Source: Deuterostichococcus epilithicus | Lineage: Eukaryota; Chlorophyta; Trebouxiophyceae; Prasiolales; Stichococcaceae | NCBI GenBank assembly: GCA_033439295.1 | Contig: JAVTLE010000010.1 | Location: 620,001 to 684,000, forward strand | Length of the DNA: 64,000 nucleotides | Direction of reading: 5' to 3' | Shown here: piece after piece, positions 368 through 40,034 of the stretch | How positions within the stretch are numbered: position 1 is the first letter of the stretch | Layout: each line of letters starts with the position of its first letter | Notes under the pieces: model-generated | The model's input: the letters and a program-made list of their open reading frames with translations, nothing else | The model's database searches: none | What the model was told of the DNA's origin: nothing | Translations under genes and position numbers: made by a program

Positions 368-3300
368 TCACGGCGACTGCCGATGTAAGCCAACGGGCGG
401 TAGCACCTGCGTCCACTCGCCGCTGCCGTCCGCTGCGAGGCTCACCACAACATCATGCTGCAGCCGCACCGGGCTGTCCCGCTGCCCAAGCGTCAGCACG
501 GCGATGCCCGCCGCACGGATGGCGCCGTACAGGTCGGCCGTCACTCCTGCGCCAACGGCGCTGGTGGCCTCGTCTAGGACGGCCAGCGACGGCTGCTCCA
601 GCAGGAGCCGCGCAACCGCCAGCCGCTGCACCTCGCCCACCGACAGCTGGCCTGCAGTACGCATTTTCAGGTCGAAACACACCTGCACAGTGATCTGCAG
701 GTTCACCCATGGTGCTGTTCACCAGGACAGTTAGGCCAGTGGAGCAGCTCCGTCCCCACACCAAAGGAGGCGAGGGACGTGGGCGGATTCAGCACCGATA
801 GACTTCACCTGCCCAGTCTGCAGGCCGGTGCCAGTCGCCGCCAACGCGCGCAAGCAGGTGCTGCAGGCCCACACACTGCAAAGCGGCTGCCATTTCGGGC
901 GCGTCGGCTGGGCGGCTGCAGCCGTAGGTCAGCTGGTCCCACAGCGCGGCACCCGGCGCCGTCAGCGCCCGCTGCGGCAGGAATGCCACCTGCGGCACAT
1001 GGGCGACAGGCAACCTGATACATCTTCCTGGACTTGGGGTCGTCACCCCGGACATCTCCTCAGGAGGAGGGCTTTCCAGGAGAGCTGTGGAGCCAATGGA
1101 TATGAAGCTCGTGATGCCGGCAATTCGCACCCAGCATCGCAGTCAGCTGGCGAGCGAAGCGTGCTGTGCAATCCTTGACGTGACGGGGTTTCCCACCTGG
1201 CCTGGTGGAGGCAGCCGGCAGGTGCCCCGCCGCCGCGGGTGCAGCCCCGCCAGCGCGCGTACCAGTGTGCTTTTGCCGCAGCCGCTGGGGCCCTCCACCA
1301 GGACGGCGCCGCCTGGCAGCACCTGCATTTCTTGCCAAATTGTATTTACAATTCTTCCACATGTACGGCCTGCATGTGCACAGCGGATGGTCTGGCGCCT
1401 AGCCTGGTCGCCATATGCCGCCTGTGCGTGTGGTGGAGCGAGCATCCGATGCGGCCATTGCTGAACACCAGGGAAGGGTATGATAAAAAGCATGGACGAA
1501 GAATGATTTGATGTGTTGTTAGGTGTGCGAAGTCGTCGAGGCTTCAGACCTGCAAGTCGAGTGCGGCGGCGCACAGCCAGCCGTCTGCAGTGCTGTAGGT
1601 GAAGTCACGCAGGCACAGCAGCGGCTGCGGCGGCGACTCGTGCCGAGGCAAGCCGGCTGTGCAGAGGCTGGCGATGGCCTGCTGCAATGCGGCCTGCGGC
1701 GCGTCTGTGAATAGCGTCGCTGGATACGACGCCGTGCCTGCAAACGCACACGGATGCCTTCAGTGATGACCATGTAAACAGAGTTGAAGCCTCGATGGAA
1801 AGTCACTGGGCCTCGCCACCTGGAAGACTGTCAGCACCACCAGATGGCCAGCACATGGCTCAGCTATCTCGGATGGCAGTGGCTGCGAAAGGGAACCACG
1901 TGACAACCAAGACGGACCGTGGACTGGGTGCTGCACGACAGGGCATGCGCCGAAGTCCCTGCGGGCATAGCCGAGGAATGTTGCTGCCGCGGTGACCTCG
2001 CTCCAGACGCGATGCCCAGGTGCGCCCGACTGCACGGTACACAGACAAATGAAGGACTTCTCAGTAAGCGAATCTGGCCAGCACCAGGCACGGCTAAAGC
2101 CTACACGGCACAGCAGCAGTAGGTGTCCTACGCAACAGCGATGGGACTCACCATAGGCTTGCCGGTCAGCGGGTCAATGGCGTCACACCAGAAATGCTGC
2201 GCCGCCAGTGCCGCCTGCACCGCTCGCGCCCACTGGACGAAGCAGGCTAGCATCCTGTCCATTTCCTGCTGCCAGAGCACCTGCGAGTCGCACACGCCTG
2301 GAGAGGCTTGATGATTATAGATTATAATACATGAATATGGATGATTATGATGACCTGTGTCCATCGAGAGGCACGCAATGCTATCCCTAAGACCCGTTCG
2401 ACTGGACCTTGAAATACAGCAAGCTCAGACACTCCTTTCATCGTAGGGGTGTCGAGCATGGGCGAGTGCATGGCAAGCCTGAAAACAGCGGCGACATGCC
2501 ACCTGTGCGTCTGTCGGCGGGTCGCTGATTGCCTCAGCGTCCGAAACCCGCTGCACGCCGTCGGGCGCAAACTGGAAGGTCAGCACCGCCAGGACGCCCT
2601 GCCCGTGCGGCGCATCCGGCAGCACCGCTGAAAGCTCGGCCCGCACGTCGCGGCCCAGCCTGCAAGGCAGGACATCTGCCCAGCTTGCTGTCATGGTAAG
2701 GTATGCTACTGCCACTGCAAACGCCTTGACCTTGCACCAGGACAGTTGTGGTCACATTCCAGGCAGTCGAATCTGCCACCTGTGAATGGACACCTCCAGG
2801 GGACCGGCGGGCGACGCCAAAGTGTGCGGTGACTCCAGCATCGTCGACATGGCTGCGCAAAACGGGGAGGCGACCTCTGAATCTGAATCCGGGTGGAAAA
2901 ACGACACAACATCAAGTCTCTTCGCTGTCTCTGGCCCTCGTGGTCACCCGACTCGGGCGGATCGGATAGGTGCCGAGTTCGAGACAACCAGCGAACAGTC
3001 GAACATAAGGCCGGCATGGACAATAGTGCCGACCAGCTTCATGGCCCGCGGCACGGATGGTGGCACCTAACACTTGGAAAATCCCAATTCTTACACCGTT
3101 CTCTGACTACCAAATACTTCCTTGTCAGCAACCCTTCTCTGTCTCTGTCGCTTATCAGTGTGCATCCCAGCAGCAGTGCGTGCCATCCGCAGCAGATCAA
3201 CATCTGCTGGTGGTCCTGTGAGTGTAACAGAACAGAAGCGTGCCTGGATCAGCGCGCTGACGGAGCTTTGCTGGCGGCGCTGCCGGCTGCCCATCGCCTG

Positions 3301-5711
3301 CGCTGCTCTGCTGCAGCAGCTCCAGCGCCTACAGTAGCCGGCTAGCGATGAGCAGCAAGCATGACAGCCGCCCAGATCTCCCTAGGTGATGCTGTGAAAT
3401 GCATACGAGCGTCGAATCTGCATGCAAGTCGCATGCCATGGCGCCTGACGAGATTCCCACCTGGGCCAGCTGGTGGATGCGCGCTGTCAGGCCGGCCAGC
3501 AGCGACAGGTGGTCTGAGGCGTCCATCATCTGGCTGAAGCTGTTCATCAGCATGAGCGTCGCGAAGCAGGCGTTGGATACCCGCTCTGCCGCCTTGCCGC
3601 CGGAATCGCCCGGCCCCCCGCGCGCCGCTGCAAAGCGGTGCGGTCGCACATCGGCCCAGCAGTGCGCGCCACCCGGCGACTGAAGCCCTTTTGGAACCCC
3701 ATCACGTTTTGCCTGACGTATTTAGGCGGCTGCCTTGACACCAAGGAAGGTGGGAAAAGGTGCAGCTGGTGCGGGAGCATCCTCAGCTTGTGGGTTGCGA
3801 TAATCCCCCGGCGCGGGCGGCTCTGTGAAAGATGGTGACAGGAGGCGCAGGGGTAGGAGACGACGACAGGCGGGCGCACTGTGGAAAACGGCGAGCGCGA
3901 CGCAGCAGTAGGAGATGATGGCGCCGCCGTAGTCCAGTGCGCGCGTCAGCGTCGCCTGCCCGGCATGCCACGCCGCGAGGCGCCGCTGGTTCCGCACCGC
4001 CGCATCCAGGCGCGCCTGCAGCCATGATTAAGCACCATCCATGACTTGGCTTCTGATGCATCCGCCATTCGAAACCCTAAAATCCCGACGGTGTCCGCAG
4101 TGTCTCACTGCGCTGCGCGAGCTGCCCTGAGCGGCCATGCATCAGGCGCCAGCGGCTGCACACTTGCGCGATTCGAGAAGGAAACGGCGGTGTCCCAGGA
4201 GGCTCGCCTGCAGCGCAGCCTGTTCCGCCGGCGAGCCGCCACAGAGCGCCGCTTCGGCAGAGGCAGCCCGCAAGCGCGCGTGCGCACTCCGCAGGTCGCC
4301 CTCCAGCCGCTCCTGTCGGAACACCGCAGCCGCAATTGGCGCCAGGACTGCCCTGCACCGTGGCATAACAGCAGGTCGCGCCTCCACCCCTTTCGAATTC
4401 CCGTGCCTTCACCGCCATTGGTGGTGCGCCACACATGGCAGCAGTCAAGTGCGCAAATTAGAGGTGCCAGCACTGCCAGCCTGACGCAGCGTGCTCAGTA
4501 GTGCACTGGTAACCTGGAATGCACGAGTGCTTGGTGATGCTGACTCACCGCTGCAGAATGGCGCTCACAGCAAAGAATACGTAGACCAGCATGACAGCGG
4601 GAGCCGATGTCAGGCGCGCCATCCAGTTCGTATAAAATGCCACCTGTCAGATCGAGCTCAGGGTGGCCATTGGTCCTTGTGTCTCAATGTAATTACTGTG
4701 GCAAGCCGTTCAAGAACACAAGCTTTATTGCCAGCACAATGGTGCTAGCACCTTGAGCGGCGCCGCGGCGAATATCGCGGCCAGCCGCCCCAGCTCCTCC
4801 GCCCAGCGGCCTACGTCTGCAGCCATGCGCTGGTCCGGATTGTCAATCGCGCCGGGCAGCCGCGCAAACGCCGCGCCGCGGCAGTACAGCTGGTGCAGCC
4901 ATGCCGTGACCGAAGTCCTCGAGCTGCAGGCGCGACGGCGCAAGGCAGTTTGTGCCGTCTCAGGGACTCATCCACAGCCACAATGGGCTTGACCAGCGCG
5001 CACCTAGAGCGAAGCGGAGCAGACAGCAGCACACATGTCACCAGGTGAGTCTCAGTAGTAAGAGAGACAACATTCTGAGAGGGCAAGCAGCAAGGCACCT
5101 GGCGGCGACAAGCTCCGACAGCCAGCGGGTGATGCCCTGCACACACGATGTCAGGCAGTACAGAGCCGCCGCCAGGCGCACTGTGTGCCACAGCGCCGCT
5201 GCCTCTCGGTCTACGAGCACGCGGTAGAATGCCCCCGCCACGGTGCCGCCTGCGGCCACCAAAGGCAGGCCGGCTCATGCGGCTGGTCCATGATGCAGCG
5301 TGCGATGAACCCGCTTGGCACCATGAGCTTCGTGCAACCGTTGCCACGGTGAAGACTCTCACTGCGGGAGACGATGTAGGCCTCCAGCACGGACAGTGCC
5401 GCCAGGGTCAGTGCATGGAACGGCCGCGCGATACGCAGCAGCGCCGGCAGCTGCCGGCGCAGGACGCCGTCCAGGCTTTGCTGCCCTGGATCGCCGCCTC
5501 CGATGTCTTGAGCCGTGCATTTACGAGGATCACCAAGCCTGGACGCTGTAGCTTCACCAGGTGCCAGCGCCTGCAAGTCACGGCGGCGCGCTGTCCAATG
5601 CACTGACCACGGAGAAGCATCGATGCATGATCGTGCCACAGCTTTGCTCACCTGGCCACGCTCCTCGTCATAGAGCACGCCGGCCAGCAGAGGCGTCGTC
5701 TCGGCGTGCAT
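368..5711 (-). CDS. ABCD4-like: ABCD4-type cobalamin ABC half-transporter with an embedded CblD (MMADHC-like) domain
   Basis: Many short exons read right to left. The membrane domain matches ABCD4: an exon near 4725-4943 has LHQLYCRGAAF and IDNPDQR (human ABCD4 has LHRLYFRGRAY and IDNPDQR), 4142-4387 has RLEGDLRSAHARLRA (the EAA-like loop), and about 3463-3650 has NSFSQMMDASDHLSLLAGLT. The ATPase domain has Walker A GPSGCGKST (about 1280), a Q-loop region LPQRALTAPG (about 960), signature LSVGEVQRLAVARLLL and Walker B LAVLDEATSA (about 550-640). LSxGExQRL followed by QPxxAVLDEATSA fits ABCD4 better than ABCD1-3. Human ABCD4 exports vitamin B12 from lysosomes together with LMBD1. Between the two halves, at 1738-2715, sits a complete CblD-like core on the same strand. 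The stop is at 368-370. The start at 5711 (MHAETTPLLAG, donor near 5650) is plausible but not proven. A CblD gene nested in an intron is the main alternative to a fusion. Confidence 0.82.
1738..2715 (-). other. CblD/MMADHC-like cobalamin-trafficking module inside the ABCD4-like gene
   Basis: Three or four exons encode the C-terminal fold of MMADHC (CblD), the protein that directs B12 to methionine synthase or methylmalonyl-CoA mutase. In order: LPCRLGRDVRAELSAVLP and VLAVLTFQ (2540-2690; human CPELLRKDFESLFP and LMILTVTQ), an exon at 2280-2152 of exactly 43 codons with WQQEMDRMLACFVQWARAV and FWCDAIDPLTGKPM (human has YWADFIDPSSG), then WSEVTAAATFLGY, GACPVVQHPVH and GHLVVLTVFQ (human [20 protein letters not shown]). 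All introns can be placed in phase. After VFQVARP a 69-nt GT-AG intron (1806-1738) joins in frame to an exon at 1737-1550. That exon carries the start of the ATPase domain (PLLCLRDFTYSTADGW), which then splices in phase 0 to the Walker A exon at 1322. No stop codon separates the two. Confidence 0.8.
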
Positions 5712-6050
5712 CTGGCTGGCACACTGTGCGCGCAGCGCCTCAAAGAGCCATTAAGACTAGCGACCACTCGGGTGACAAAGCCCTGCGGCACAGCACAAGC
5801 GCTGGTCAATTCCGACTATCCAAGGTTCTGTCTGTTGTGCCAACGTGAAACAGGCGAGGTCTGCTCTCAGAGGAAGCGCAGCGTGCGCTCACGTGCACGA
5901 GTAACGGCGGTTTCGGAATCCGATTCAGCAGCACATGCTGCTACCCCAGCAAATTTTCAAGCTTTCGCCTCCCAGAACTGTTTGCAAGATGCGATAACCG
6001 GCTGCCGTGCTCATTGTGATTCGTGCAGCCGCCACAAGTGAAGTTACACC
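5712..6050. promoter_or_regulatory. divergent intergenic region between the ABCD4-like and SulP genes
   Basis: About 340 bases lie between two head-to-head start codons, so this interval should carry both 5' UTRs and a shared or back-to-back promoter. No TATA box, riboswitch or conserved motif was recognised. Open frames here are short and without recognisable motifs. Confidence 0.4.
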
Positions 6051-9000
6051 ATGTCTGCCCCAAGGCATGTCCCTCGGCCACCAAGCAGGCCGAGCAGCTC
6101 ACTAACTGCCGCGCTTCTCTCCAGCAGCCAAGAGGACCATGAAGCACGCATCGATGTTCCGCTTGCGCACGGCTCAGCGCAGAGCCTGGGCCTGGGCAGC
6201 TCTTACGATGCGGACGCCCTGAGCGGCGGGCACACGCCTGAGCAGAACGCCTTCCTTGTGGGCAGCCCATGGTGAGCAAGCCGCGTGCTACAAGGGCTGA
6301 TCATGAGCCTGCACTGTGGCGCGTGATTCAACAGCGATCCGGCAGATTTACAAGCTGTAATGCATGCATGTGCCGGCACGGAACGATGCGGCGCCAGCCA
6401 CCTTAAAGGCGCTCGGTGCAAGGCTTCCTCATCAGCCTTCTCTGAGTTGTGGTCACGTCTGCGTGATGGGCTCAGGGGCGGCCCGAGGAGCGGCGCCTCG
6501 CTGTTTTTGCGGTCAACCAGCCGCTCGTACCGCCGCCCATCCTTCGATGAGTCCGCCGCGCCGCACTCCATGGCCCGCACTTACAGCATCAGCGAGGTGC
6601 CTGACTTGGAGGCAGCGGCCTCCGGCCGCGTGTCGCGCGAGGCCAGCCAGACGCTGCTGGGCGCGCTGCATGAACCGGGTGCAGGCGGCGGCGCGACATC
6701 GCTGCCCGCTGGCAGCCCGGCAAAGGCGGACGGCCCTGACGTGGAGCGGGCCCTGCAGCCGCCAGAGTTCTCAGGTAGACACCGCAGCACAGAGTCGCTG
6801 CTGACAGGGCACGGGCCTAATGCGTGAAGCTTCTGTGGGGCCAGCTGCCAGGCTTGGCTTCAGGGTCCTGAATGCGTGGTGAGTACTCACCGAGACCAGA
6901 GCTTTGACCTTCCCCCTTGCAGCGGAGGAGAAGGCGTCAGCGGCGGCAAAGGCGAAATCACTGTACACAGCTGTTGTCTATGGCTTCATCAACGGCATCG
7001 TGGGCCTGCCAACGATGATTTCCTTTGTTGCCATCATATTCAAGGTGTTTGATTGTGTCTCCATCCGTCATTGATTGTGTCGACAGATTGCTTGTTTTGT
7101 TGTGCCTTCACCCGTCTCCCTCATGAGGCGATTGCTCAACATACAGAGCTGCTCCTGCAGGACCCCACATACTCAACATACCTCAGCCAGCTGGCCAAGC
7201 TCGGCTTTTTTGCCTCGGGCGTGCACCAAGCGGTGCGCCTGCAGCCCGTCTGACGGACATGCAGCACAGCATTGCTGGCCCAGGAGCCCACGCCGTCACC
7301 TGCATCGCGCTGCCAGCCCTGGCGTCACTGTATGTCCCGTCACTGCGCAGGTGTTTGCCATCTTCAGCACGCTGCCTTATGCAGTCGGCCAGGTTCAGGA
7401 CGTGGGCCTGATCTTCCTCAGGTGATGGTTGCGAGCGGTGCATTGAATGCATGTATGGGTTGGCGGCAGGCCTGCCACTGGCTTGCGTAGCCCATGTCGA
7501 TATTGCTTGTCCTGATGGCCCTTGCTGATGTGCTCGGCAGCGCAATGGCCACCTCCATCGCGGCCATGTGCGCCGACGCCGGGTCGGCGGTGGCAATGGG
7601 CACATCGCTCACCTGGCTGGCTTTCTCAACCGTGGCGGTCGGGCTGGCCATCATTGCCGTGGGGAAGCGGAAGCTGGCCACTCTGGTGCTTCACACTGCT
7701 GCTCGGAATGGCACAGATGCAGCATCAGACATCTGGCGTTTGGCGTATGAAGTATGGTGTATGCCTGTAAGGCGGCAGTCTGCTCAGGCTTGGCGTATTC
7801 GGGCGGGGACCTTTGGATCACTGAACATGGCGCTCTTGTGCCGCAGGTGCAATACATGCCCATTCAAGTGGTTGGAGCCTACCTAGGTCAGCTACGGATC
7901 ACCTCTGGCAGGGGTTCCATGAGCGTCAAGTGCAATGTGCATCTCGACTCGTCAATGATCAGTGTGCAAAGCTGTCATGCCTTTCCTACAGGCTATGTCG
8001 GCTATTTCTGCATAGCCGCTGGCATCGGGCTCGGTGTGGGTCAGGATATCGGCAGCATCCTCTCATGTGAGCAATCTGCATGTTGTACTCTGTTGACTGC
8101 AAAATTCTGATACCGGGACATGCCCATTCGTCCGCCTTGAGGCTAGGCTTTCTCATGGCGCGATGAGTGTGAGAGTCGACGAGTATTGTCCGCCTTCAAA
8201 GCCGAAATCGCTCTCCGTCGGGTGCGCAGGGCGGCTGCTGGCGCAGAAAGATGCGCTCAGCAAGTTGGGCCCGACCCTCGCGGCCACAGCGGCGCTGCTG
8301 CTGACGCTCAAGTGCAGCCGCAACCCCCTGGCACTGCCCGTGGTGCGGTCGTCGTCCTCCCTTTCGTGTCTTCAAGGTCGACTCGTGCTGAGCTCCATAT
8401 GCGATGAGCGGGGCCACGCATGGCATGAACAGGGCTGCGCATGGTACCTGCGTCCGTCAGGTCACTCGAGACGAGCCCGCCACTGCACCTGAGGCGCTCT
8501 GTCCCCTGCAGGTGCTCGTCGCGATACCGGCCATCTTCCACGTTGTGCGCATCTCCATGGGCTACTCGATGGACGACGCCATCGCCACAGGGTGGCTGAT
8601 GAGCGGCGCAGTGAGATTCGCATCCATCCATCCATCCATCCATCCATCCATCCATCCATCCATCCATCCATCCATCCATCCATCCATGCTCCACCATTCG
8701 AAGGGCACCTTGGCACTGCCCAGTGCACTCGCGCGAGATCTGTCGCTCTCTACTCCGCCAGGGCAAGGTCATGGTTGGTAAGTCGCTGTTGTGTCGTCGC
8801 GAAACGAAGCATTCAGATGCCAAATGCAGGGTTCGGACAAGCCGTTCTGGTCGGTGTACGAGCTGTACAACTGGAGCTTCGACGGCTGGAAGCTGGAGGG
8901 CGTCCAGTGGAGCGCGATGCCGCGGCAGGTGCCCAGCCTGATAGCGCTGTTCCTGGTGGTCACCTTTGGCAGCGCCCTGGACGTGGCCGCCATCCAGCAG

Positions 9001-15170: not shown

Positions 15171-18100
15171 CTACAGCTTTGACGGCGGGCTGAACCAGTC
15201 CCACGTGTCTGCGCTGGTGTACGTCGTGACCTGCTTCAGCGTCAGGTAGGCCTGCAGGAAATAACGGGTGTGACTTTTTTGTTATGTCCATGACCAGGTT
15301 TCTAGCAACGCAGCACGTGCAGGTTGACCGCCATGGGCCAGGCGACTCAACGAGCGATTGCCCTGCCAACTCAGAGGCGGGACGTCGAGCACGTGATTGA
15401 TTTTCACAACACAGCACACCTCCAGGCCAGCCTCGCCGAGCTCACGGCCGAAGCCAGAATTCTTGACGCCGCCCCATGGCGCCTGCACATTGTAAGATGC
15501 GCGCATAAGCCTCAAGCGCATTTGCAGCATGCACAGGGGACGGAGCGCTATCGTCACGGAACTGCCAGCCCGAAGGAGACATGTGAAATGGTGATGCTTG
15601 CGGGGCTCTGGTGGGTCGTGAAGCGTACCTGGCAGAAGCATGGCTGTGCGCAGTTGATCCTGCACCAGGCAAGGCGCTTGTTGAATCGAAACACGAGAGC
15701 CATGGCGATCAACCCACTGAAATGCTGCGCACAAACCATAGCAAGCACTGCATCTCACCACGTGACGCCCGCCTCCAATGCTGCCGCCACCCGCCGACAT
15801 CGCTGCGATCCATGATGGCGTCGCTCAGCAATCCAGTGCGACGCAGAACACCACAGCCGCAGACAACAAGAAGCCCGCAGCCAGACCACGCACAGTTTTA
15901 CGCATTGATGTTCCAGCGCAGGTTGAACTGTGGCGGCAGGTGTATCTCCCAACGGCAGCTGCCCCAGGCTAGCAGGGTTGACAAGGATGGAGAAAAGAGG
16001 GTCCAGGTGCACCTCCTCGTCGGCGGAGATGACGGCGGCGCCGAGGCCGAACTCGCTGTCATTGGCCAGCCGTATCGCCTCCTCCTCTGTCACGAAGGTG
16101 GTGCATGCCAGCACCGGGCCAAACACCTGCAGGCAAGTAGGATGCTTGAGAAGGTACTGAGAGGAGCAAGCTGCCGCCTCTTGGGAATGCCGCACGGTTT
16201 TGGCCCCCACAGGAGCATGCACAGGCTGATGCAGATGGATGGTCCTGCCATCTGCAGTCACGTCGCACTTTGGAGGATGGAGACAGGGCCGACCAGGTTG
16301 CAGCAAAAGGACTTGATCGAACTGCTACAACAACGCCGCACCTCCTCCCGCCAGATGGTGTCCTTGGGTGTCGCCATGAAGGCGGTGGGCTGCACCCAGA
16401 AGCCCTTGGCCCTGCCCGGCACGCGGCCGCCGCCCGTCAGCAGTGTGCACCCCTCCTCCTTCGCTTTCTGCGCTCCGCACGGAAAACCGATTAGGACGTC
16501 GTGACACCGCGCCCACCTGGCTCTTTTCCAGGCAGCGCCCCGCCGAAAATCACCTGCCCTGATTCTGTTGGCGGATCTGCTTCAGGAAGGGTTGTGTCCG
16601 TGGCACAGCCCACTTTGAGAGCCTGCTCGCGGCAGGCTTGCTGGCGCCGCACGCTGCGCCGGGGCATGGCGCCAGTCACGTGCAGATGGTGGGGCTGACA
16701 TGAGTCTGGTTGCACACCTGGATGTACCCCATTACTTTCTCGTATTGCTGCTTGTTGATGAGCGGGCCGAGGCGCGAGGACTCGTCAAAGGCGTCACCAA
16801 TATGGATCTCCTCCGCCCGCGCCTGTGTTTGACATTCGACACCAAACCGCTCACGGTTGTGCTCGCGTCAGCGCAAGCGTTCAGAGCCAATGCCGTTCCT
16901 CGTGCAGCAACGCCTGTCAGCAGGTGGCACACTCTCGGCCAGAGCTCCCTGTATAGCCCAGCTCTGGGATGCTCCGCACCTTGAGGCGTTCGAAGAACTG
17001 CTGCGCGATGGGTGCCGCCACGATGAGGCGCGACGTGGCGGTGCAGATCTGGCCAGTCGTCCAGAAGATCGAAAACTGCGCGTCGACAGACACAGTTGCA
17101 TGACACCGGTGTCTGAGCTGAGGCCACCCAGCTGCCATGGGCGCACGGGCAGGCAGCCAGGCAGGCTTGCTCGCCGCTCGGCCAGGCAGGCAGGTCAAGC
17201 AACTAGTCAAGGTCAAGTGGCCAGGTGGGCATGTACAGGGACGCAGCCCAGCGCTGCAAATCACACCATGGCCCACTCGACTGCCTTGTCGATGTCCACG
17301 TCCTCGAACACGATCATGGCCGACTTGCCACCCAGCTCCTGCACAATGCAACAAACGGGATCCATGCTTTGAGCCCGGCCCGCGGCTCAGTCATGATCAT
17401 AAGCGCCCTGACGGATGGATGGGCGATGCCACACGTGGGGGCATTGGAGCAGGTCAGATTTTAAGCAGGGGCATTTGAGCAGGGGGTACACACCATGCTG
17501 GTCGGCCGCAGGTTGGCGGCGGCGGCAAGATTCACGCGGCGCCCGGTGTCGACGCTTCCGGTGAATGCCACCTTCGCCACGTCTGGGTGGCCGCTGCACA
17601 GGGGCGCCAAGTGTTGTCGCACAGGGTGAACTACCAGCCAACAGACCATTCAGCGCAAGCTTGTTGTCAGTCCCTCTGATGCACCGTGCCTGTGGCTGGT
17701 CTGGGCCTGCCGCTGCAGTGCAAGCGCGTGGCTGTGCATTGGTTTCTGCAAACAGAGTGCTGAGTGCACGTCAATCCCTGATGCTGCAGGACACAAGGAC
17801 ACAATCGGGCACCTGAGCGGCGCGCCGGCGTCGCCGCCAAGCCCGGTCACCACGTTAAAAACGCCCGCAGGCAGCTTGACGGCCTCGGCAATGGCCGCGA
17901 GCTCCAGGCTGGTCACGCTGGCGTGCTCGCTGGGTTTCAGGATGGCGGTGTTGCCTGGGCAGGAGGAGGCGGTGGGTGGAAAAGGCGCAGTCCATGCTGG
18001 AAGACGCAGAGCATGTGCATCCAAGCATGCGCACGATCCCGCATGCGCATGCTGTGGGCCTCAGCATGGACTGCGCTAAATTCCAACTCCGCGACAGGCA

Positions 18101-19543
18101 GTGGGATTGGCATTGCCGCTCTTACCAGCTGCCAGTGCGGGCGCCACCTTCCACACCGCCCTGTCATGTGTGGTGCCATTCGTTATGTCCTAATTTATCC
18201 TGCTGTGCGAGTGGACAAGGGTTGCATGCTGCAGCAATGGAAGTCGGTCATTCAAGGACACAGCGCCACCATCAGACAACATTACAACTCAAGAGGGAAA
18301 TGAGAGGACTCAGATCCCACATGAGCATCGGGTAGTTCCTGCAGCCCGAGAAACACGCTTTGAGGGAGTGCAACATTCGCCCCTGAAAGGCATGCGAGAC
18401 GCCGCATCCACCGGCATGGAAGGCGCCAAAAATGGCAGCAGCCGACATATGTGATGCTTCCGAGTGTGCTGCCACTCACCATGGTGAGATGAGCGCGACC
18501 TGCAGCCACAGAATGAAATCTTTGCTGTTTGAGCGGCGCCCAGTGCGGACAGCCAGGCCAGCACAAGAGCGTCAAACAAAGACCATGCCACCGGCCAAGC
18601 AGCCGCAAAACATGGGCATGTCACAGCATCTGGCCGGGTGTTGCCGGAGGTTCCTCCCACTCACCGCTCCCAGGGGCTCACGCCGTATCTCGGACTTGAA
18701 GCCCTCCTCGCCCAAGTCGACCGGCTGCCATTGGCGGCCGTCCAGCTTATCAGCCAGGTCGGCATAGTAGTCAAAGCACGCCGCCACATCATCCTGCGCG
18801 GCAGATTCCTCGATAATTGTGCCAGTGCTATGCGTTTCAAAAGGGCTCACAGGAAGATGTCAGGATGGCATGGACGCTTCTTGCCCCGTGCATCTATGCG
18901 TCCATCCCTTTCGCCATGCCTGCGGATTTAGGCATCCCGGGGCGTATGGCGGTACTGGGAAGCACGGTAGCCCTGAAAACGCCGAGGAAGGCAGGGCAAC
19001 TCACGATGTCCCACAGCGACTCGGAGATGGGCTTGCCGTTGTCCAGCGTCTCATACCGCGCCAGCTGCTCCCGGTCCTCCTTGACCTATATGAAAAACAG
19101 AACGCACCCTTGATGACTTCTCTCGTTAGTATCTGGCCGGTTGGTTTTGTAATCAATCAGCTGCAGCCGATATGCTGAGTACGCATGCTGATCAGCAGCA
19201 TGCCAAGCATGCCAGGCTCAGCAGCATGCACAGCGCTGCGACGTCAACCGGGAGCAACAGCAGCGTGTCGTGCGCGTCGCGCGGTGCCGCTGGGTTTGCT
19301 TGCCTTAGCGGCTATCTTGCGCAGGAAAGAAGCCCGGAATGCTCCCGTGGTCTTGCCCCAGGCGCCCTTGGCAGCGAGTGCAGCGGCCACGGCGGCGTCA
19401 ACATCCTCCTTGGTGGCCAGCGGAATGCTGCCTATGACAGACTCGTCATGCGGGCATGTGACGTCAAAACGTTCCTTCCTTGCTGGCTGCACCCACTTGC
19501 CTCCAATGAACAGCTGCCGTTCCGGAATTGATTGGTCCCCCAT
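15171..19543 (-). CDS. ALDH10-like: aminoaldehyde / betaine aldehyde dehydrogenase (ALDH10 family)
   Basis: NAD-dependent oxidation of aminoaldehydes or betaine aldehyde. The start [18 protein letters not shown] (ATG 19543-19541) matches the ALDH10 N-terminus. Further exons read right to left: [17 protein letters not shown] (19420), [14 protein letters not shown] (18750), [20 protein letters not shown] (about 17890-17950; KPSE is the NAD-site lysine region), [20 protein letters not shown] (17530-17590; Rossmann motif FTGS), [17 protein letters not shown] (about 17300-17340; the Glu is the general base), [19 protein letters not shown] (about 17020-17075; catalytic Cys in GQIC), [20 protein letters not shown] (16070-16120), NCAQPCFCQ (15635-15665), [20 protein letters not shown] (15430-15475) and a last exon ending [20 protein letters not shown] with stop at 15171-15173. 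All expected catalytic residues are visible. The upstream neighbour on the same strand is PAA1, 218 bases away. No C-terminal peroxisomal SKL-type signal was seen. Confidence 0.92.
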
Positions 19544-19761
19544 CCTCGAAACGGCCGACTCAGCTCTGAAGATGTGCGCGCAGGGGCTTCGGGAAGGTCT
19601 CCTTGCACAAGAGCTTACATCAATCTGTTGATTGCCGTCGTAATTGGCACATTGCCGACGCTCCCTCCCAAATGCATTACTCACATGCAGCATGTGATGG
19701 GCTGATGTGGCATTATGACTCACACATTATTAAGAGCCACAGACAGTGTTCCTTGAGAACA

Positions 19762-22700
19762 TCAGGGTGCGGCAGGTGTGGCTGTCAGTGCTGGCACAGA
19801 CGCCTCCTTGCCCGGCGCTGCCCGTGCGATGCCCTCGCGCCGCAGCAGCAGCGAGTTGGTCATCACCGCCACCGAGCTCACGCCCATCAAAGCCCCTGCG
19901 GCAGCATGCGGCGAGCTGCCGTTGCACTACCAAACTACCTGTTATCGCCACCAACGGGCGAAGGCACCACGAGAACATGCGGCCGTAGCAGTCATCTCAT
20001 GCTCATGCGACAGGGAGCCGCCCGGCGGGCGCTGCCAAGCACATCTCAGAAGGCTGATGCCAAAGCGATGGGCGGACCTGCGATGGAGGGCGTGAGCGCA
20101 ATGCCGTAGGCGGGCAGCAGCGCGCCGGCGGCGAGGGGGATGCCCACGGCGTTGTAGGCGAATGCCCAAACCAGGTTCTGCCGAATCTTGGCGAGCGTCG
20201 CCCTGCTGAGCCGCAGTGCATCCACTACCTGTGGTGCATTGTGACAGGGCCGTTGGGGCGACCAGGCAGCGGTGCATGTGAAATCGGGGATGTTGTCACC
20301 TTGCAAGAGAGGTCTTGGCGCATCTGGAAGCAGCGCATGGCCGGAGCGCATGCAGCAGTTGCTGCAAGTCGGCGTGTGCACCTGGGGCGGACGGTCGCCC
20401 AGCAGCACAATCGCGGCGACCTCTGCAGCGGCATCGACGCCTCCGCCCATGGCGATGCCCACCTCGGCCTGCATGCGGGCGTGATCACAGGTGCTGATGC
20501 CGACTGGTGCGGCTAGATGCGATGCTGGCTGCAGGTGCACATGTCATCGGTGCAGGCAACACAGCCCCTCAGCGCTTGGAGCTGCCCTCTTGAGCAACGA
20601 GCAGGAGTTGTTTATTCCAAAAGGGGTCGCCTTAGTCTCTGCCACCCCGCGCAGCCTGCCAGAAAATAAAAAGAAATGCTTCAGGTGCCGAACCTGCTGA
20701 GGAGCGTCATAACGCATGGCCGCACCTGCGCCAGGGCGGCCGCATCGTTCACTCCGTCGCCGACCATAGCGACGCAGGCCCCTGCCTGCTGTAGATGCGC
20801 CACCAGTTCGGCCTTGCCGGCGGGCTTCACACCGCCGTACGCGTCGCCGGGCGCGATGCCCACCGCCGCCGCCACCTCACGCACTGCAGCCTCCCTATCG
20901 CCTGCGGGTGATGATTCACAGGCCCTCCGTGAGGCCGTGTCGAGGATCTGGCTGCGCTGGGCTTGAGACCGCCTACTCCACCGTCCTGCAGGTAACTTCA
21001 ACACTATGCCACATGGTGGCCTTGGCGAAGTGATCACGAATTTCAGGTCGCCCTCATGTCCAGACTGGAGGTAGGATGGGACGACAGCTTTCGACTGACC
21101 TGACAGCAGGATGGGGCGGATGCCCATGGAGCGCAGGCCCTGCACCGCCGCCTTTGCGTCCGGTCGCAGCGCATCAGCGATCTGGATGGCTGCCGCCATG
21201 TGGCCGTCGATGGCCACAGCCACCGATGTGGCGCCCTACGCAGCCAGCACCAAGGGCTTTCAACATATCTTCACAAACACACACACGAGTCGCCTGCCCA
21301 GACACCCTCAATGCAAGCGTACTGACGGCACAGGGCCCATGAGTTTGGTCCCGAGGTGCAGCGTGGCAAGCAATGGCCACAAGGAAAGAAGTGTGCTGCC
21401 GGCCCTGGCGGCGCGCTGCAGTAGACCCTCTGCAGCAGAGCCGGGTGCCCACCTGCGGGCCTCCGGCCGGCAGCGCGGGCGGCGCGCCCGTCACGCCGCG
21501 CGATGCCAGCCACTCGAGCGTGCCAACGGCAACGTCATGCCCATGGACGGTGCCGCTGATGCCGCTGCCGGGCTCCTGGTTCACGATGCCGTCTTTCGCG
21601 GTCAGCCTCGCCGCACCTGTGTCCCGAGGGCAATCACTGCCCATCAGGACCTGAGTTTGCAGACCAAGGAANGGGGGGGGGGGGGGCACTTGGTCAGGCA
21701 GGGTGCCCCCGCGCGAGGCTGACAAGCACGCCGCGGCAGAGTAGCAAGCTATCTGGGAGCTACAACAGCAAAGTCTGAGCCCGCAGCACGCTTATACCCT
21801 CAGCCTCAGCGTGTGCAGCAATTGCGAGCGCGATGGGGTGGTTGGCGCGCCGCTCCAGGGCCGCCGCCAGCGCCAGCACCTGCAACTCGCTCAGGTCGCC
21901 ACCGCTCGCCAGCGCCACCGCCTGAGCACACGAGCGAGTCAACTTATATAGATGTTGTTTTGCCTGCTTGTCAGTTTGGAAGCGCCGCATCGAGCGGCCT
22001 GCTGCGTGAGGCTTGTCATGTCCGCGGCCTGGCCTGCCATGGCAACACATCATCGAGAGGGTGTGCGTGCCCGCCAAGCGGCGACTGTGCAAACGCATTG
22101 GCGGATCGAGTACCAAGGCATGCGCCCATTGTTTCCGGAGGTGGACACAGCCCACACCTTGACCGTGGGGCGGCCGGCTGTCAGGGTACCCGTCTTGTCA
22201 AACACCACGGTGTCAACGTGCGAGGCTGCCTCCAGCACGTCGCCGCCTCTGATGAGCAGGCCCCGCCTTGCGCCTGCACCATGGCCGGAATCAGTTCCGG
22301 GTGCAGGCCCTGCTGATGTTTGGCTTTCTGTGCTGTTGCAGTGCCGACACGCCTCAGCCGAAACCCTCTTGATGTGCAAGCTACAAGATGCGGGACGAAT
22401 AGAGCACAGCATGTGACCTTCGCTCCATGGAAGAGCAGCAGGCAGCGGCAGGGAATGGACGCAGACCAGTGCAGGCGAGGACGTCAGTGCACTGCGGACC
22501 TGCGGAGGTGCCGACGAGGACGGCGGTCGGGGCGGCTAGGCCCAGGGCGCAGGGGCAGGCGACCACCAGGACGTTGGCGGCCAGCTGCGCGCCCGCCAGC
22601 AGCGCCGCCATGGGGCCTGTGGACGTGACGCCGCCCAGCCGCTGGATGACCTGCAGGGGGTGTAGCAGAGACTGTGTAGCAAGTACTTCAGAGATTTGTA

Positions 22701-25700
22701 CTTGGCACCTGATGCACGCCGCAATCCGGGCACGGGTTTGGTGGACAGCGTCCTTGATTTGGATGAGTGTATCCACAGACTTGTGCATTGCAGCTGCGAG
22801 CCTTGCCTGTGGGAACATGCGGACGCCAGCGGTCGACCAGAAGAGGAAGGTCAAGGCGGAGGCGGCCATCACACCATACGCAAATTTACCCGCCACCTGC
22901 ATGTTAACAGCGCAGGTTTTGGAAGGGGTACCGGATCTGACTAAATCTGCATGATCAGAGAATGCTTCGCAGCAGGGTTGTGCCGGACCGTGCTGCCGTT
23001 GCAGCCGCAGAGGCAGCGAAGCACCAGGCAAAATGTCAGACGTGACAGATATGACGATTTCGCCTCGAGGTCTCAAACCTGGTCTGCGAGGCGCTGCACG
23101 GGCGCCGAGCGGGCCTGCGCAGCCTCCACGGCGCGCACGATGTCGGCCATGGCGGTGTCCCCGCCGGCGCGTTCCGCCCGCACCGTCAGCGCGCCGTCGC
23201 AGTTCACCGTGCCCGCTGTCACGCTGTCGCCTGCACGGTATCAGCAGACTTGCTGGATCCAGCATGGCGGTGCCAGCGAGGCAGACTTTGCCACGGCAGC
23301 TCAGCGCTGCCTGCCGCATCCGTAGCAGGGCAAACTGGTCAAGCCCCGTCGAGATGTCAGCTGTCTGCACGGTCCAGTGTGAGCAGCACCCCTGACACGC
23401 CGGAGCTTGTGGATGATCCGGACAGCAGCATGATCGACCCTCACCTTCGCCCTTGGGCACCGGCAGCGGCTCGCCGGTCAGCGCGGCCTCGTCGACGGAG
23501 GAGCGGCCGCCGGCGATGGCGCCGTCGACGGGGATGCGGTCCCCCGGCAGCACCGCCAGCAGGTCGCCCTTGGCCACCGCTGTCGCCGGCACCTCCTTCC
23601 AGCTGCCGTCGCCCAGCGCCAGCCGCGCTGTCGCCGGCAGCAGCTCCTGGGGTGGCGACATGAGTGCGTGGGTGCGCCTGATCCTGAAGGTTCGACATTC
23701 CAGGCAGCGGCAGCTGCTCCTCCCTGATACATCCAGCTGGCACTGAACCTGTGAGTATGCTCCCACTTTGCATCATCAGCGCTGCCGATCCGGTTCAAAA
23801 GCTGGCGCATCACAGCTGAAACAGCCGATGGTTCACCTGCAGGGCCAGCAGGGAGGAGGAGGCGGCGATCTTGGCGCGCTGCTCCAGGGTGCGCCCCAGC
23901 AGCACGAACGCCAGCAGCATGGCTGGCTCCTCGAAGAAGGTCGACCAAGCCAGGCCAGGCGCCGCCGCCTGCGAGCGGTGCATCCGAACTCAACAGCCGC
24001 TCCTTGTGAAGGCAGCGCTTCCCCATTTGAGTGGCGGGGGCACAGATGCCGAATAATTCCGGCACAGCAATGCGACTGTGCGGCCGCCTGCGAGCCAGCA
24101 ACGACATCAAGCGCTGCCTGCAAAGGCGCTAAGAACACAGGGCATGGCAATCTAACCACGTGTCTGCTGCAAAGGCGGTGCAGCCTGCCAGCGTCCAGCA
24201 TCGGACGCTGGCGACAGGATTGCTCAAGAGGTGTAGAGAATTGCGGCATGGCGCACCGCAACACACGAGACGGTCCAGGCGGCGCAGGCGCCCATGCCGA
24301 CCAGGGAGTTCATGTCGGGGGCGCCCCGCCGCAGTGCCCGCCACCCCTCCACCAGGATCTCCCGCCCGGGCCCTGCACCGCGGACCAGGCCGGCGGCATC
24401 AGGCCAACAGCATGGCAGATAAGCACTTGTGTTCAGACATGCACGACCTGGGTCACTCCAGGCTGTTCGAGCGCTGGGGCTGCGCAGCGGCTGGACTGTG
24501 CGGCTCCTGGCTGGCGGCTTCGCCTCGTGGATGGGCACCATGCAGCGCAGGCGGCGCCTCACCGAGCATGGCGAACAGCGACAGCGCGGCGTGCGCCCGG
24601 CTGGAGGCCAGCAGCCTGACGGCGGCGGGCAGGCGGCCCGGCCACGCATGCGCCAGGTGCCCCGCCAGGCACGCCACCGCCAGCCCCGCCGCGACCATTA
24701 GCCGCCGCGTCACCTGTGCAGGGTGCAACAGAGGCAATTTCGGCCCCGGGTCGAATGAAAGCATGGCCGTGCACAGGCTGCCAGCGAACCACGGACGCTC
24801 GCGTGTGCGATGTCGCAAGATGCGCCGCACTACTTAGGGGCAGTGCATGCGTAGCACAGCCTCAAGACGATTGCGAGCAGCCTCAAACTTCATGGGGAAA
24901 ACGACAAAGATCACACCTCTCGGAGTCGCTCATGCCGCTCGGTGGCGCGGTCGCCAGCGGCGCCGCGCACCGCTGCTGCGGACTCATCCCGCACGCTTGC
25001 CGCATATCCCCTGCTGGTGAGCAGCTGCACAGGGCATGTAACATTGCTGAGAAGAGATACGCTGCACACAAGCTCTGTTGTGTCTCCCCACTTCGAAGCA
25101 TGCTGGTCGGTTCGAATGCGACATGCAGTCGCATGTCGTCACCATGTCTGATGTGCAACGACAATGGACGAACGTATGACGAACCTGTGCTAGCTGCTCT
25201 GCGAGGGAGCCGCGGCCGGCTGCGCCCTCCTCAGCGGCCTCCAGGCTGAGCCCGCACTCACCGCCGGGCATCAGCACCCGCACCATCGCTGTCTCCGTGG
25301 CTAGGTTGACGCTGGCCTGTGCGGCGGCGCACACAGGGTGATCATGAAGTTGAGCCCCCAGCTGCACGCCAGTGAGGGAGCGCTGCCTTATTGCGTACGC
25401 GCCATTCCTGCGCTCGGGCGTAGCCGGCCACTGCCGCACAATGCTTGAGGAGGTCTCTCCAGTGCATGCAGGGTTTATGACTCTTGCCTGCACGACGGGC
25501 GGCTCGTCCTCCAGGATGGACTTGACCCTGCTGACGCAACTGCCGCACCGCATGCCTGTGCGAAGAGGTGCAGACATGTTGGAAGTTTTATCATGTAGCA
25601 GCCAACGGATGCAGCTCCCAATGCACACTGCTGCCGCACTGTGTCATGAACAACTCGCCCGTGACATCAAGTAGGATGACGTCCTCGCTGCTGCTGGAGG

Positions 25701-26226
25701 CTGACGGCGCCCTCGCAGCAGAGGGGATCCGCCCATGCCTGCCGCCGCCCCCGCCGTCGCCGCCTCCGCTGCTGTGGCCAATGAGGGACCCGCCGCCGCC
25801 GCCGCCAAGGCCCAGGGCCAGTGACGCCCCCACAGAGCACTGCGCAAGGTGCAGCTCCTGCCTGCCCGCCCGGCCATGCCGCTGCCCCCATGCTGCCGCG
25901 CCGCGACCCAGTCGCCGCAGAGCTGGAAGAGGTTCGTTGCCTTCAGAGCTAGATGATTGCCGGCACTGGCAGCTGGGGCATATGCCGGCACATCTCCGTG
26001 CGAAGCGGCGCTCAGCTGCTGGACCCGCTGTGGTCAGCGTCAAGCCATGAAAAGCGCGGCTGTACCTCCAGGAAGAATTGACTGGTGCGGACGTCAGTCT
26101 GCAGGCAGTTCTGCTGGCAGTGCTGCAAGCTGGCGCGCCCGCAGCTGCCACATGCGATGCGCGGCTGCCGCATGCATGCTGCAGCGCCTGCATGCTCAAA
26201 TTGAGCGTGACCATTCTGAGTTGCAC
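19762..26226 (-). CDS. PAA1-like: chloroplast P1B-type Cu+-transporting ATPase (PAA1/HMA6-like)
   Basis: Pumps copper(I) across a plastid membrane. A basic, Ser/Ala-rich N-terminus fits a transit peptide. It is followed by a Gly-rich tract (about 25700-25830), as in Arabidopsis PAA1, then [10 protein letters not shown] and, after an intron, a metal-binding domain with [15 protein letters not shown] (25530-25575). Downstream exons carry the actuator motif [20 protein letters not shown] (about 23450-23510), the membrane metal site [17 protein letters not shown] (about 22520-22570), the phosphorylation site [17 protein letters not shown] (about 22170-22215), the nucleotide-domain HP motif [16 protein letters not shown] (about 21810-21855), the hinge [14 protein letters not shown] (about 20735-20775) and a final membrane pair ending near 20050. 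The last exon has [18 protein letters not shown] and stops at 19762-19764. All P1B-1 signature residues are present. Possible starts in the same frame are 26226, 26214 and 26193. One N beside a G-run occurs at 21672 in the gene. Confidence 0.93.
21672..21686. other. ambiguous base next to a 14-G homopolymer
   Basis: A single N at 21672 is followed by fourteen G residues. It lies in the PAA1 gene near the exon encoding [18 protein letters not shown] but probably in an intron, since a splice donor can be placed upstream. The length of the run is likely to be a sequencing or assembly uncertainty. Confidence 0.9.
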
Positions 26227-26708
26227 CGATCACAATTACATGATGGTGCAGCACAGTTTGCCAGCCAATTGCCGGTGCACGCAACCAATCCGACAGCAAA
26301 TATGGCAGTAGCCAAAACACAGATTGAGAAACGTAGCAGGACGAACTCGCAAGCTGCCGGCGACTGCCGTGTTCTCCCGCTTTGCTACTAAACTGACATC
26401 TGAAACTGAGATTTGCTGGTCTGGTGGCTACATGACGTGCTGAGCCAGCCTTATCTCATCCAGCAATTTGACCGAGCGCCGGATGGAAGCTTGGGCAATT
26501 GAACGCACTCACTAAGAGTTTTCGATCATTTGCCGTGATCCAATTTCGATTCTCTCAAACCTGGTCTGCATCGAGTGCAGCGTGGCGCACAAACTGGCAA
26601 GGAGAATGCAAATTTGTGTGCGCGACACAGCTGATGCGGCACACCGGTCACCTGGGGCAGCAGCTGCGGGGCAGGGAAGACGGCGTCAAGTGTCCCACCT
26701 CATTCCGA
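26227..26708. promoter_or_regulatory. divergent intergenic region between PAA1 and CSA
   Basis: The two genes start back to back, so this interval should contain both promoters and 5' UTRs. The first CSA exon is not resolved and might begin anywhere from about 26499. No copper-response element of the algal GTAC type was searched for systematically, and none stood out. Confidence 0.35.
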
Positions 26709-29453
26709 TGTCGGCTGAGCTACGAGAGGTTTGTGCAGGCAGTCTGCTGACTCGGCAGCAGAAATGCACCCGGTCATGCATTGCGGAACGGCGACATGTG
26801 CATACACCAGTGTGGTCGTGCAGCAGCGTCTGCTGCATTCGCTTAGTGCACTTATCGTTGCAAAATCCTCCCTTGTACCCAGGAAACTGACGCTGGAGTA
26901 CAGCCCCAGCAAACACATCGACAGCGGCGCCGCGGCGGGGATCACATGGATGGACCTGGACCGCATCGAGCACCGCTACCTGCTGGCGGCATGCGCCGAC
27001 GGTGCGGAATTCCACCTGCAATGTTGCTTGATGCATCGTTTTTCCTGGGCGCCAACGGAAATGTCAACGCTGTGGGTTGCGGATGCAGGGTCACTGGCCG
27101 CCTTCGATGTGGCGTGTCCCTCAAACGGGGCAGGAGACCGACTCGCGCGGCACACTCCAGTGTTCCAGGTCTGCCGTTCTGCCAGTCTACCAGCTGGACA
27201 CTTGCACGCTTGTCTTCAGCACGGGATTTGCACGACAGCGTCGCCAACCTCACAACGAGAATGGCCACCTTTGACGGGACGGCTCGTCAATTGAGCAGGT
27301 CAGCCGCACAGCGCCGGGCGCGCACACCTTCACGGTGACTGCAGCGCTGTGGTATCCAGTGGACACCGGCCTCTTTGTGACTGCGTCCTTTGACCAGAAC
27401 GTCCAGGTGGGCCTTTCACACCGGCACCTGTTCGGCAGTGCCGGCACAATCGAAGCTAGCTCACTACTCGCCGCTCCAGTGCTGTGATGCTGCACGGCAG
27501 CTTGGCACATCGTGACACCCCAAGCAACACCTCAACAGTTGTGCAGGTGTGGGACAGCAACCACGTGCTGCCAGTGGCGTCGTTCGAGCTGGGTCAGCGG
27601 GTGTACTGCGCCGCGATGTCACCGCTGGCCCACACGCACTCCCTCATTGCGGCCGGCAGCGGCGATCCTGCGGTGAGCAGTCCTGCATCAGTCTGTCGGC
27701 AAAGCTGAACAGCAGATGATGCAGCAGATGCCGCAGCTACAAATGTCTGGAGCGCCGCCTGTGACCTCCGACTCAAATCGCAGGTCAAGCTCTGTGATGC
27801 GCGCTCGGGCGGCTTCACCCACAACTTGACGGGGCACCGGCAGGCGGTGTGGGCTGCCGCCTGGAGCCCCTCCTCACAGTGGCACCTCGCCACTGGCGGC
27901 TGCGACGGCCAGGTCAGTTCATGTGCGGACGCCACTGGACCACATCACGCCAGCCCATGTGGCGCAAGCAGCTAGGCCAGGATGGCGTAGTGTCGTTTCC
28001 TGTGTGCTGCAGCATGCTTCAATCTGCTTGTGCAGGTTCGGATGTGGGACATCCGCCGGGCGGGGTGCATAGCACTGCTCGACCAGCACGCCAGCCAGCC
28101 CGCTGCCGCACTGTCCGCCATGCCGATGGCGGACGAGTGGTACGTAGTCTGGCACACCGCTCAGTTGCTTTCAGGTGTTCAGTGTTCAGTCGCTGTCGAG
28201 TTGTGGTCAGCCAAGCTACAGAAAGCCCAATCATGCATTGCAGCGGGGCAACGATATGCCGCTTTCAGCATTGAGCATTTAGCAAACAGCCAGCGTGTGT
28301 GCTGGTCGAGGCTTGGCCACATCTACCGTCCCAGCTTCTGCATGATGTGAGGCAGGCCTGGAGCGACTAGCGGCGATCCAGAGCGGGATGTGGTGCCACC
28401 GACGGCAACTGCCACCGCGCACGACGGTCGCGTGACGGCGCTGCTACCGACGCCCGACGGTCTCTCCTGGCTGTCCGCGGCGACAGACTCGCGCGTCCGC
28501 CTTTGGTCGGTGCCGCAGCTCAGGTGCCCTCTCGTCCACAGCCATAGCTCGGCTGCCCCTTGTGAGGCAGAACAGGGCGCCCGCAGTGTGCCTTTGACTC
28601 AGGACTGCTGTGGCTGGGTTGCTGCATGTCCCGCTTCACCTGAGGCCATACTGCCTTGTGCGCAGGAATACGCTTGTAAACTTCCCGAACACACACAACA
28701 GGGCAATCCGGGTACGCGGCCTCTGGCATTGCGCAGGAGGCGTTGCGCAGTAGACATGTGTGCATAGCTTGTGTGTTTTGCATGAGCAGCCTGAGCTGCG
28801 GCCTTTTGCTAGATCTTTGCTTGATCTCAAACCGACAACTGCTCCATGGGATTCTGCACAGGCAAGGCAGCTGGCAGTCACGGAGGATGCGCGGCTCCTA
28901 TTCCACCCCTCGGGAAGCGCCATTCAGGTGGGCAACGGGCACATCTTGTATGTCGGAAATGGCGAAATCAACAGTCTTTGTTGACATGTATGGGCGCCGA
29001 AGCCACAGTCGCAAGCCATGCAGTGTCCGCTGCCTATAACAAGGGCTATTGTTTGAAGTCAAGGCTGCGGCAGGGCCTGACGACTGCACCATGCGGAGCA
29101 GGTGTTCCACCTGGCGGACGGCCGGCAGCAGGCCGTGCTGCGTGGTGCCCACTTCGAGAGCATCAACTGCTGTGTCTGGAACAGCGCCCAGCAGGTGCGC
29201 GCATCGCATGTCCAACCGCCGCCAGCGGCCCAGGACATGAGCGCTCTGCGGCCGCATCTGGGAATCTGACTGCTGAAGGTGTCCAGTATCTGACACGGGC
29301 ATCTGGGTGCCATCGCAGGAGCTGTACAGTGGCAGCAACGACCTCAATATCAACGTGTGGTCGCCAAAGGAACGGCTGCAGCCAGAAGAGGCGCAGGGTC
29401 TCAGCGAGGACGTGAGGGAAGATGATGAGGACAGGTGGAGCGATGATGCATGA
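26709..29453 (+). CDS. ERCC8 (CSA): CSA/ERCC8-type WD40 protein, transcription-coupled repair adaptor
   Basis: In other eukaryotes CSA is the substrate adaptor of a DDB1-CUL4 ubiquitin ligase in transcription-coupled nucleotide excision repair. WD40 blades lie on successive exons: AAAGITWMDLDRIEHRYLLA (about 26930-26990), GSLAAFDVACPSNGAGDRLA (27090-27150), TVTAALWYPVDTGLFVTASF (27333-27393; plant CSA has GAVWYPVDTGLFVTGS), VWDSNHVLPVASFELGQRVY (27549-27607), HRQAVWAAAWSPSSQWHLA (27837-27893), VRMWDIRRAGCIALLDQHAS (28036-28094; human CSA has IRRWDVRRASGCL-type text here), HDGRVTALLPTPDGLSWLSA (28419-28478), NTLVNFPNTHNRAIR (28670-28714), LYSGSNDLNINVWSPKER (about 29322-29375), and an acidic tail ending EDDEDRWSDDA with TGA at 29451-29453. 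The tail mirrors the acidic end of human ERCC8. The start is uncertain; ATG 26709 (MSAELREVCAG) is one candidate. A GTGAGTG donor lies 21 bases after the stop. Confidence 0.9.

Positions 29454-33951: not shown

Positions 33952-40034
<6,083 letters not shown>

Follow-up and report, generated by a model that had tools for sequence, protein, structure and literature searches.

Introduction

To our knowledge, how cobalamin (vitamin B12) gets from its exporter in the lysosome to chaperones in the cytosol is still a gap in the picture of B12 trafficking. Human ABCD4 is described as exporting cobalamin to the cytosol (PMC11311337), LMBD1 and ABCD4 are said to interact with MMACHC in animals (PMC4956942, citing Deme 2014), and MMADHC (CblD) is said to load methionine synthase, its Cys261 and Cys262 both serving binding and loading (PMC13376404). 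More specifically, Cys261 of human MMADHC is given as the sulfur ligand of cobalamin (PMC7847965) and Cys262 as the residue that initiates cobalt-sulfur (Co-S) cleavage when methionine synthase is loaded (PMC12272874). Putative homologues of ABCD4 and LMBD1 have been reported in Chlamydomonas by BLAST (PMC10828217). In this study, we examined a stretch of 64,000 nucleotides (nt) from the green alga Deuterostichococcus epilithicus (contig JAVTLE010000010.1, positions 620,001 to 684,000; hereafter, the whole stretch is called the window), in which one nuclear minus-strand gene probably encodes an ABCD4-type half transporter (~804-822 residues) with a CblD/MMADHC core set into the linker that leads from its final membrane helix to the ATPase. 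In animals, this domain is a protein in its own right that receives B12 after export.

Results

Between 5711 and 368 of the minus strand, 17 exons can be joined into a single stop-free spliced frame. The gene was built by listing minus-strand stop-free segments and linking exons by phase and homology, and all gene models draw on sequence and scores only. With the linker exon ending at 3262 the spliced protein has 816 amino acids, and with two alternative GC donors 804 or 822. In Pfam, the 816-residue protein matches, in this order, ABC_membrane_2 (PF06472, 137.3 bits), MMADHC (PF10229, 55.0 bits) and ABC_tran (PF00005, 62.8 bits), which bears out the order membrane domain, CblD, ATPase on one strand that an earlier sequence-only reading of this stretch had proposed. 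Splice sites across the fusion frame are acceptable, the exception being the linker donor (a weak GT or two GC options). As a whole gene the fusion scored 116.8-118.0 nats, compared with 102.9 for two genes, 101.3-102.5 for a model using a 69-nt splice before the ATPase, 93.9-95.2 for an ABCD4 skipping CblD, and 70.7-72.0 for ABCD4 plus a nested CblD with its own stop. A CblD inside an ABCD4-type transporter, as the sequence-only reading had it, is thus the best-scoring model, with its firmest evidence where CblD meets the ATPase; the 69-nt junction of that reading fell away, and the connection of the membrane domain to CblD depends on a donor that is either weak or non-canonical. The parts of the gene are as follows.

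5652..5711, minus strand: exon 1, with the start codon (5711) and the motif ETTPLL (residues 4-9)
5363..5570, minus strand: exon 2, membrane domain (phase and homology, Pfam)
5099..5249, minus strand: exon 3, membrane domain (phase and homology, Pfam)
4752..4923, minus strand: exon 4, membrane domain, contains NPDQR (phase and homology)
4549..4643, minus strand: exon 5, membrane domain (phase and homology)
4208..4352, minus strand: exon 6, membrane domain, followed by GC donor CAG/GCGAGC (donor picked by phase and homology)
3880..4015, minus strand: exon 7, membrane domain (phase and homology)
3461..3627, minus strand: exon 8, region of the last membrane helix (phase and homology)
3262..3328, minus strand: linker exon, end uncertain, with donors GC 3297, GT 3261 and GC 3243 (coding score)
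2780..2852, minus strand: CblD exon 1, acceptor 2852, ATG at 2850 (acceptor; weak similarity to human CblD 146-152)
2503..2659, minus strand: CblD exon 2 (coding score, comparison with human CblD)
2152..2280, minus strand: CblD exon 3, PF10229 match (profile)
1918..2029, minus strand: CblD exon 4, with an Ala-Cys pair at the positions of human Cys261-Cys262 (PF10229, alignment)
1738..1917, minus strand: 180-nt intron ACG/GTCCGT...TTTGCAG, with an in-frame TGA at 1762-1760 if retained (scores only)
1550..1737, minus strand: junction exon, holding TASYPATLFTDAPQA from the C-terminus of CblD and the ATPase start LLCLRDFTY... (profile, PDB alignment, decoys)
1197..1322, minus strand: ATPase exon, Walker A GPSGCGKST (phase and homology, Pfam, motif position)
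809..989, minus strand: ATPase exon, PQRALT region (alignment, motif position)
368..651, minus strand: final ATPase exon, containing the LSVGE signature, Walker B, a Gln in the H-loop position and the stop codon (alignment, motif position)

The last membrane-domain exon, previously placed at 3463-3650, is corrected here to 3627-3461. Within the membrane domain, the intron 4207-4016 (minus strand) is apparently of the GC-AG type (CAG/GCGAGC); its GC donor was chosen because no GT donor was found that fits frame and homology. We take ETTPLL in exon 1 to be an acidic dileucine-like motif, and motifs of this kind can send proteins to the lysosome or vacuole.

CblD and the ATPase are very likely fused in one polypeptide, as judged from profile, alignment and splice scores. 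Exon 1737-1550 runs without a break from a CblD C-terminal segment into the ATPase, and since the end of the one and the start of the other lie in the same exon, no splicing is required where these two domains meet. Approximately the first 15 residues after the join match the CblD C-terminus, and it is because of this match that the MMADHC profile score rises from about 42 to 58 bits. With intron 1917-1738 the CblD part, taken by itself, reaches 57.8-58.8 bits, and the match extends to profile position 264 of 272 (the cut-off of PF10229 being 27 bits), compared with 40.7-41.9 bits for a CblD ending at its own stop and 41.5 bits for the exon cut at 1918. Likewise, the best E-value among PDB chains moves from 5.2e-7 (own-stop form, with a longer N-terminus) to 2.7e-9, and the alignment extends into the FTNA/FTDA segment. 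When exon 1737-1550 was replaced by other exons (nine random picks from the window's 24 other exons that lie outside this locus, are in phase 1 and measure 110 nt or more), all nine gave 40.9-44.0 bits, compared with 58.8 for the real exon.

Splice scoring points the same way. Among 75 open single-intron models linking 2029 to the ATPase frame, intron 1917-1738 ranks first (16.9 nats; runner-up 12.2) under a score that is blind to homology, its codon and splice models having been taken from predicted genes outside the locus. The segment 1917-1763 scores -0.55 nats per codon and is therefore intron-like (medians -0.43 for introns and 0.28 for exons, computed over all predicted genes in the window, including the present one). 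The 69-nt intron 1806-1738 proposed by the sequence-only reading reaches 3.2 nats on the same scale and 42.0-42.5 bits in the MMADHC profile, adding almost nothing to the match obtained with the exon cut at 1918, and was rejected.

The membrane domain is of the ABCD4 type, as had been proposed, with 135 bits to human ABCD4, compared with 109 to Arabidopsis ABCD1 (two halves summed) and 39 to human ABCD1. For the ATPase, the earlier assignment stands at the level of the ABCD family but not for ABCD4 specifically: it matches human ABCD1 at 111 bits, ABCD3 at 95 and ABCD4 at 83. Walker A, signature and Walker B are all present according to motif positions and alignments. At the H-loop position the residue is Gln, which is also found in the second half of Arabidopsis ABCD1, whereas the first half of that protein and human ABCD1 have His.

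The membrane domain is quite likely to be on the same chain as CblD and the ATPase, on the strength of frame and splice scores. The linker exon, earlier placed near 3330-3250, was recovered as coding sequence from 3328 to ~3262, at +0.32 nats per codon in frame. Two GC donors, 3297 and 3243, score 1.71 and 1.75 despite a 50-fold penalty, compared with -0.91 for the GT donor at 3261. All three donors share the same phase, which fits acceptor 2852, so the frame through to CblD is independent of the choice of donor. Depending as it does on a weak or non-canonical donor, this join is less certain than that of CblD to the ATPase.

Several observations count against the fusion. None of 198 predicted introns has a lower donor score than the linker's GT donor 3261, and CblD exon 2852-2780 is nearly without coding signal (0.01 nats per codon). 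The CblD cassette measures 471 nt, a multiple of three, and splicing the linker directly to 1737 is also in frame, giving a 659-residue ABCD4. If the 180-nt intron were retained, the protein would end at 1760, without the ATPase. This same intron also contains, at 1858-1805 (minus strand), the stretch GHLVVLTVFQVAR, which lies in the frame of CblD exon 4, precedes the TGA at 1762-1760 and is similar to the C-terminus of human CblD. By BLOSUM62 over 13 residues it scores 20 against human CblD, compared with 16 for the junction exon (a value reached by 33 of 98,911 window 13-mers), and over 23 residues the intronic stretch scores 20 and the junction exon 9, values reached by 5 and 146, respectively, of 81,720 window 23-mers. 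The N-terminal half of the CblD part is only weakly similar to human CblD, its score being reached by 50 of 2000 shuffles, and alignment places Ala at the position of human Cys261. Finally, exons of this locus were among the seeds of the gene finder, which afterwards learned from its own predictions.

Two attempts to make the intronic stretch the end of CblD were rejected. A hand-trimmed protein scored 49.2 bits in the MMADHC profile and has no legal splice, and a hand-placed 66-nt intron from donor 1924 (score 0.8) to acceptor 1858 (-4.9) gave 48.0 and 48.3 bits. The likeness of GHLVVLTVFQVAR may be due to chance, or this stretch may be a remnant of another way for CblD to end. Transcripts retaining the 180-nt intron or skipping the 471-nt cassette could yield ATPase-less or CblD-less forms of the same gene.

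The weak linker donor also invites a reading as two genes, in which a membrane-domain protein would stop after the linker (before 3200) and a CblD-ATPase protein would begin at ATG 2850, immediately after acceptor 2852, the two assembling into one transporter. Between the linker (end 3262) and the CblD exons lie 409 nt of intron-like sequence with TGTAA at 3095, a possible algal polyadenylation signal; the sequence-only reading, in claiming no room for a promoter or terminator, had therefore overstated the case. This signal proves little, for TGTAA occurs within 1000 nt 3′ of just three of ten predicted stops, and so its presence at 3095 decides nothing. Continued read-through of the linker (3261-3203) is noncoding-like at -0.50 nats per codon, and the two-gene model scores 102.9 nats, 15 below the 118.0 of the fusion. 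As about 9 of these nats are assumed start and stop costs, two genes are only disfavoured by the score; taking both sides together, we consider them improbable.

Less probable still is a nested or alternatively spliced arrangement, in which the linker would be spliced to 1737 to give the plain 659-residue ABCD4, with CblD as a separate gene from ATG 2850 to TGA 1762-1760 on the same strand, inside an intron of at most 1524 nt. Here the direct splice is in frame and produces a complete ABCD4, and the exon beginning at 2029 is open to TGA 1762-1760, which could serve as a separate stop for CblD and comes after a stretch like the human C-terminus. Nesting also has a precedent in VAChT, a transporter gene within an intron of ChAT, a gene of the same pathway. 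The present locus differs from that pair in that its junction exon holds sequence of CblD as well as of the ATPase, a point against nesting; read as nested, exon 1737-1550 would begin with a useless CblD C-terminus. Moreover, no predicted intron outside the locus (0 of 179) reaches 1500 nt, and CblD with its own stop scores 40.7-41.9 bits, compared with 58. The combination of an own-stop CblD with an ABCD4 skipping it was rejected as a gene model, being 46 nats below the fusion in whole-gene score (70.7-72.0 compared with 116.8-118.0) and leaving exon 1737-1550 with a CblD C-terminus to carry.

The fusion remains the preferred reading. Within it, CblD exon 2852-2780 has weak similarity to human CblD 146-152, and the N-terminal leader region of CblD, including a recognisable mitochondrial leader, was not found in the fusion protein. 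Of the human cysteine pair, the Cys262 equivalent is kept. In the MMADHC profile, changing the Ala at position 261 to Cys gains 3.4 bits, while loss of the Cys262 equivalent costs 6.5-6.7 bits; given this higher cost, the kept cysteine is the more conserved of the pair.

The CblD part of a fused protein might no longer handle cobalamin chemically and might serve instead as a docking or structural module, for example by holding a CblC-type protein at the transporter exit. Such a role would be compatible with the fusion itself and fits the replacement by Ala of Cys261, the sulfur ligand of cobalamin (PMC7847965), as well as the description of CblD as a nitroreductase fold used solely for protein-protein contacts (PMC11311337). 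The Gln at the H-loop position could be read in the same sense, but the second ATPase of Arabidopsis ABCD1 has Gln there too. Retention of Cys262, which starts Co-S cleavage in methionine synthase loading (PMC12272874), speaks for a chemical role, as does the profile cost of its loss relative to that of the Ala at 261. On balance, we regard a purely structural role as rather unlikely.

Relatives were sought in viral and prokaryotic collections. Neither the CblD-ATPase protein nor the CblD alignment found any in the viral contig collection, and the CblD alignment found none in the genome contig collection, where the 816-residue protein matched one locus, on a Rhizobiales contig (35% over part of the ATPase); the plasmid collection gave no match.

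The surrounding window has a GC content of 0.58-0.68 (in 2-kilobase steps). Its intron density alone makes a eukaryotic source practically certain, and GC content, splice style and the predicted gene at 34473-39717 described below suggest a green alga. A predicted plus-strand gene starts at 6570, and the interval 5712-6569 separates it from the minus-strand start of the fusion gene at 5711; with starts thus divergent, the promoter region may be shared. By eye, this neighbor resembles a sulfate transporter that also bears a part for binding cyclic nucleotides, but two of its exons have no Pfam match. At 15171-27647 (minus strand) lie exons of a P-type ATPase (PF00122, 67 bits; PF00702, 35 bits), and the same prediction includes an exon from 17954 that is aldehyde dehydrogenase-like (22.7 bits, just below the cut-off of 23), so that the gene finder, which merges some adjoining genes elsewhere in the window, has probably merged two genes here. 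One predicted gene at 34473-39717 (plus strand) joins a glutamine amidotransferase exon (PF00117, 38 bits) to a chorismate-binding exon (PF00425, 53 bits), and we take it to resemble a fused aminodeoxychorismate synthase. A C/D-box small nucleolar RNA, U36a (RF01302, 54.3 bits, cut-off 45), was found at 57193-57286 (plus strand), inside the predicted gene span 55949-63408.

Discussion

If the gene is expressed as modeled, the fusion protein would dimerize in a vacuole- or lysosome-like membrane and use ATP to move cobalamin into the cytosol, as human ABCD4 does. Two tethered CblD domains would then sit on the cytosolic side, beside the ATPases at the transporter exit, where they might receive cobalamin via the retained Cys262 equivalent, probably together with a partner of the CblC type, and pass it on to methionine synthase. 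In this way, a contact that is only temporary in other systems would become permanent. We put forward this sequence of export, capture by tethered CblD and delivery tentatively, as slightly short of an even chance. That export and delivery may be coupled in one protein is plausible, with the qualification that Ala stands at the Cys261 position while the Cys262 equivalent is kept. More doubtful is the specific proposal that ATP-driven B12 release is coupled to capture and loading with the cysteine at position 262 replacing the usual cobalt ligand. Were release and capture coupled in this manner, cobalamin could reach its target without passing through the cytosol in free form.

The locus most likely presents known parts in a new architecture, a genuine transporter-chaperone fusion. 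No such insert is known to us between the membrane domain and the ATPase of a half transporter, and a chaperone domain would be an addition to what this linker can carry. In the literature on ABCD4, MMADHC/CblD, cobalamin and algae, of which coverage was partial, we found no mention of an ABCD4-CblD fusion, although databases may contain one that has drawn no comment. If exporter and chaperone are naturally fused, evolution itself would testify that both act at one place; such a fusion would put CblD, beyond CblC alone, at the exporter exit, and would offer a single polypeptide in which the hand-over could be tested.

Set beside the known systems, the predicted protein resembles each of three without coinciding with any. 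With human ABCD4, the lysosomal cobalamin exporter (PDB 6jbj), it shares the membrane domain (135 bits), the half-transporter order of membrane domain then ATPase, and the NPDQR region; it differs in the CblD core within its linker, in an ATPase nearer to ABCD1 (111 compared with 83 bits) and in the Gln at the H-loop position. In common with human CblD/MMADHC (PDB 5cuz, 6x8z, 9mrs) it has the domain core (PF10229, 55-59 bits) and the Cys262 equivalent, but this core lies within a transporter, with Ala at 261, a weakly conserved N-terminal half, an insertion of ~16 residues before the profile match, and no leader region found. Its ATPase is like that of the peroxisomal ABCD1-3 proteins (ABCD1 111 bits, ABCD3 95), from which it is set apart by a membrane domain with only 39 bits to human ABCD1 and by 72 bits in NCBIfam TIGR00954, where the cut-off is 919.

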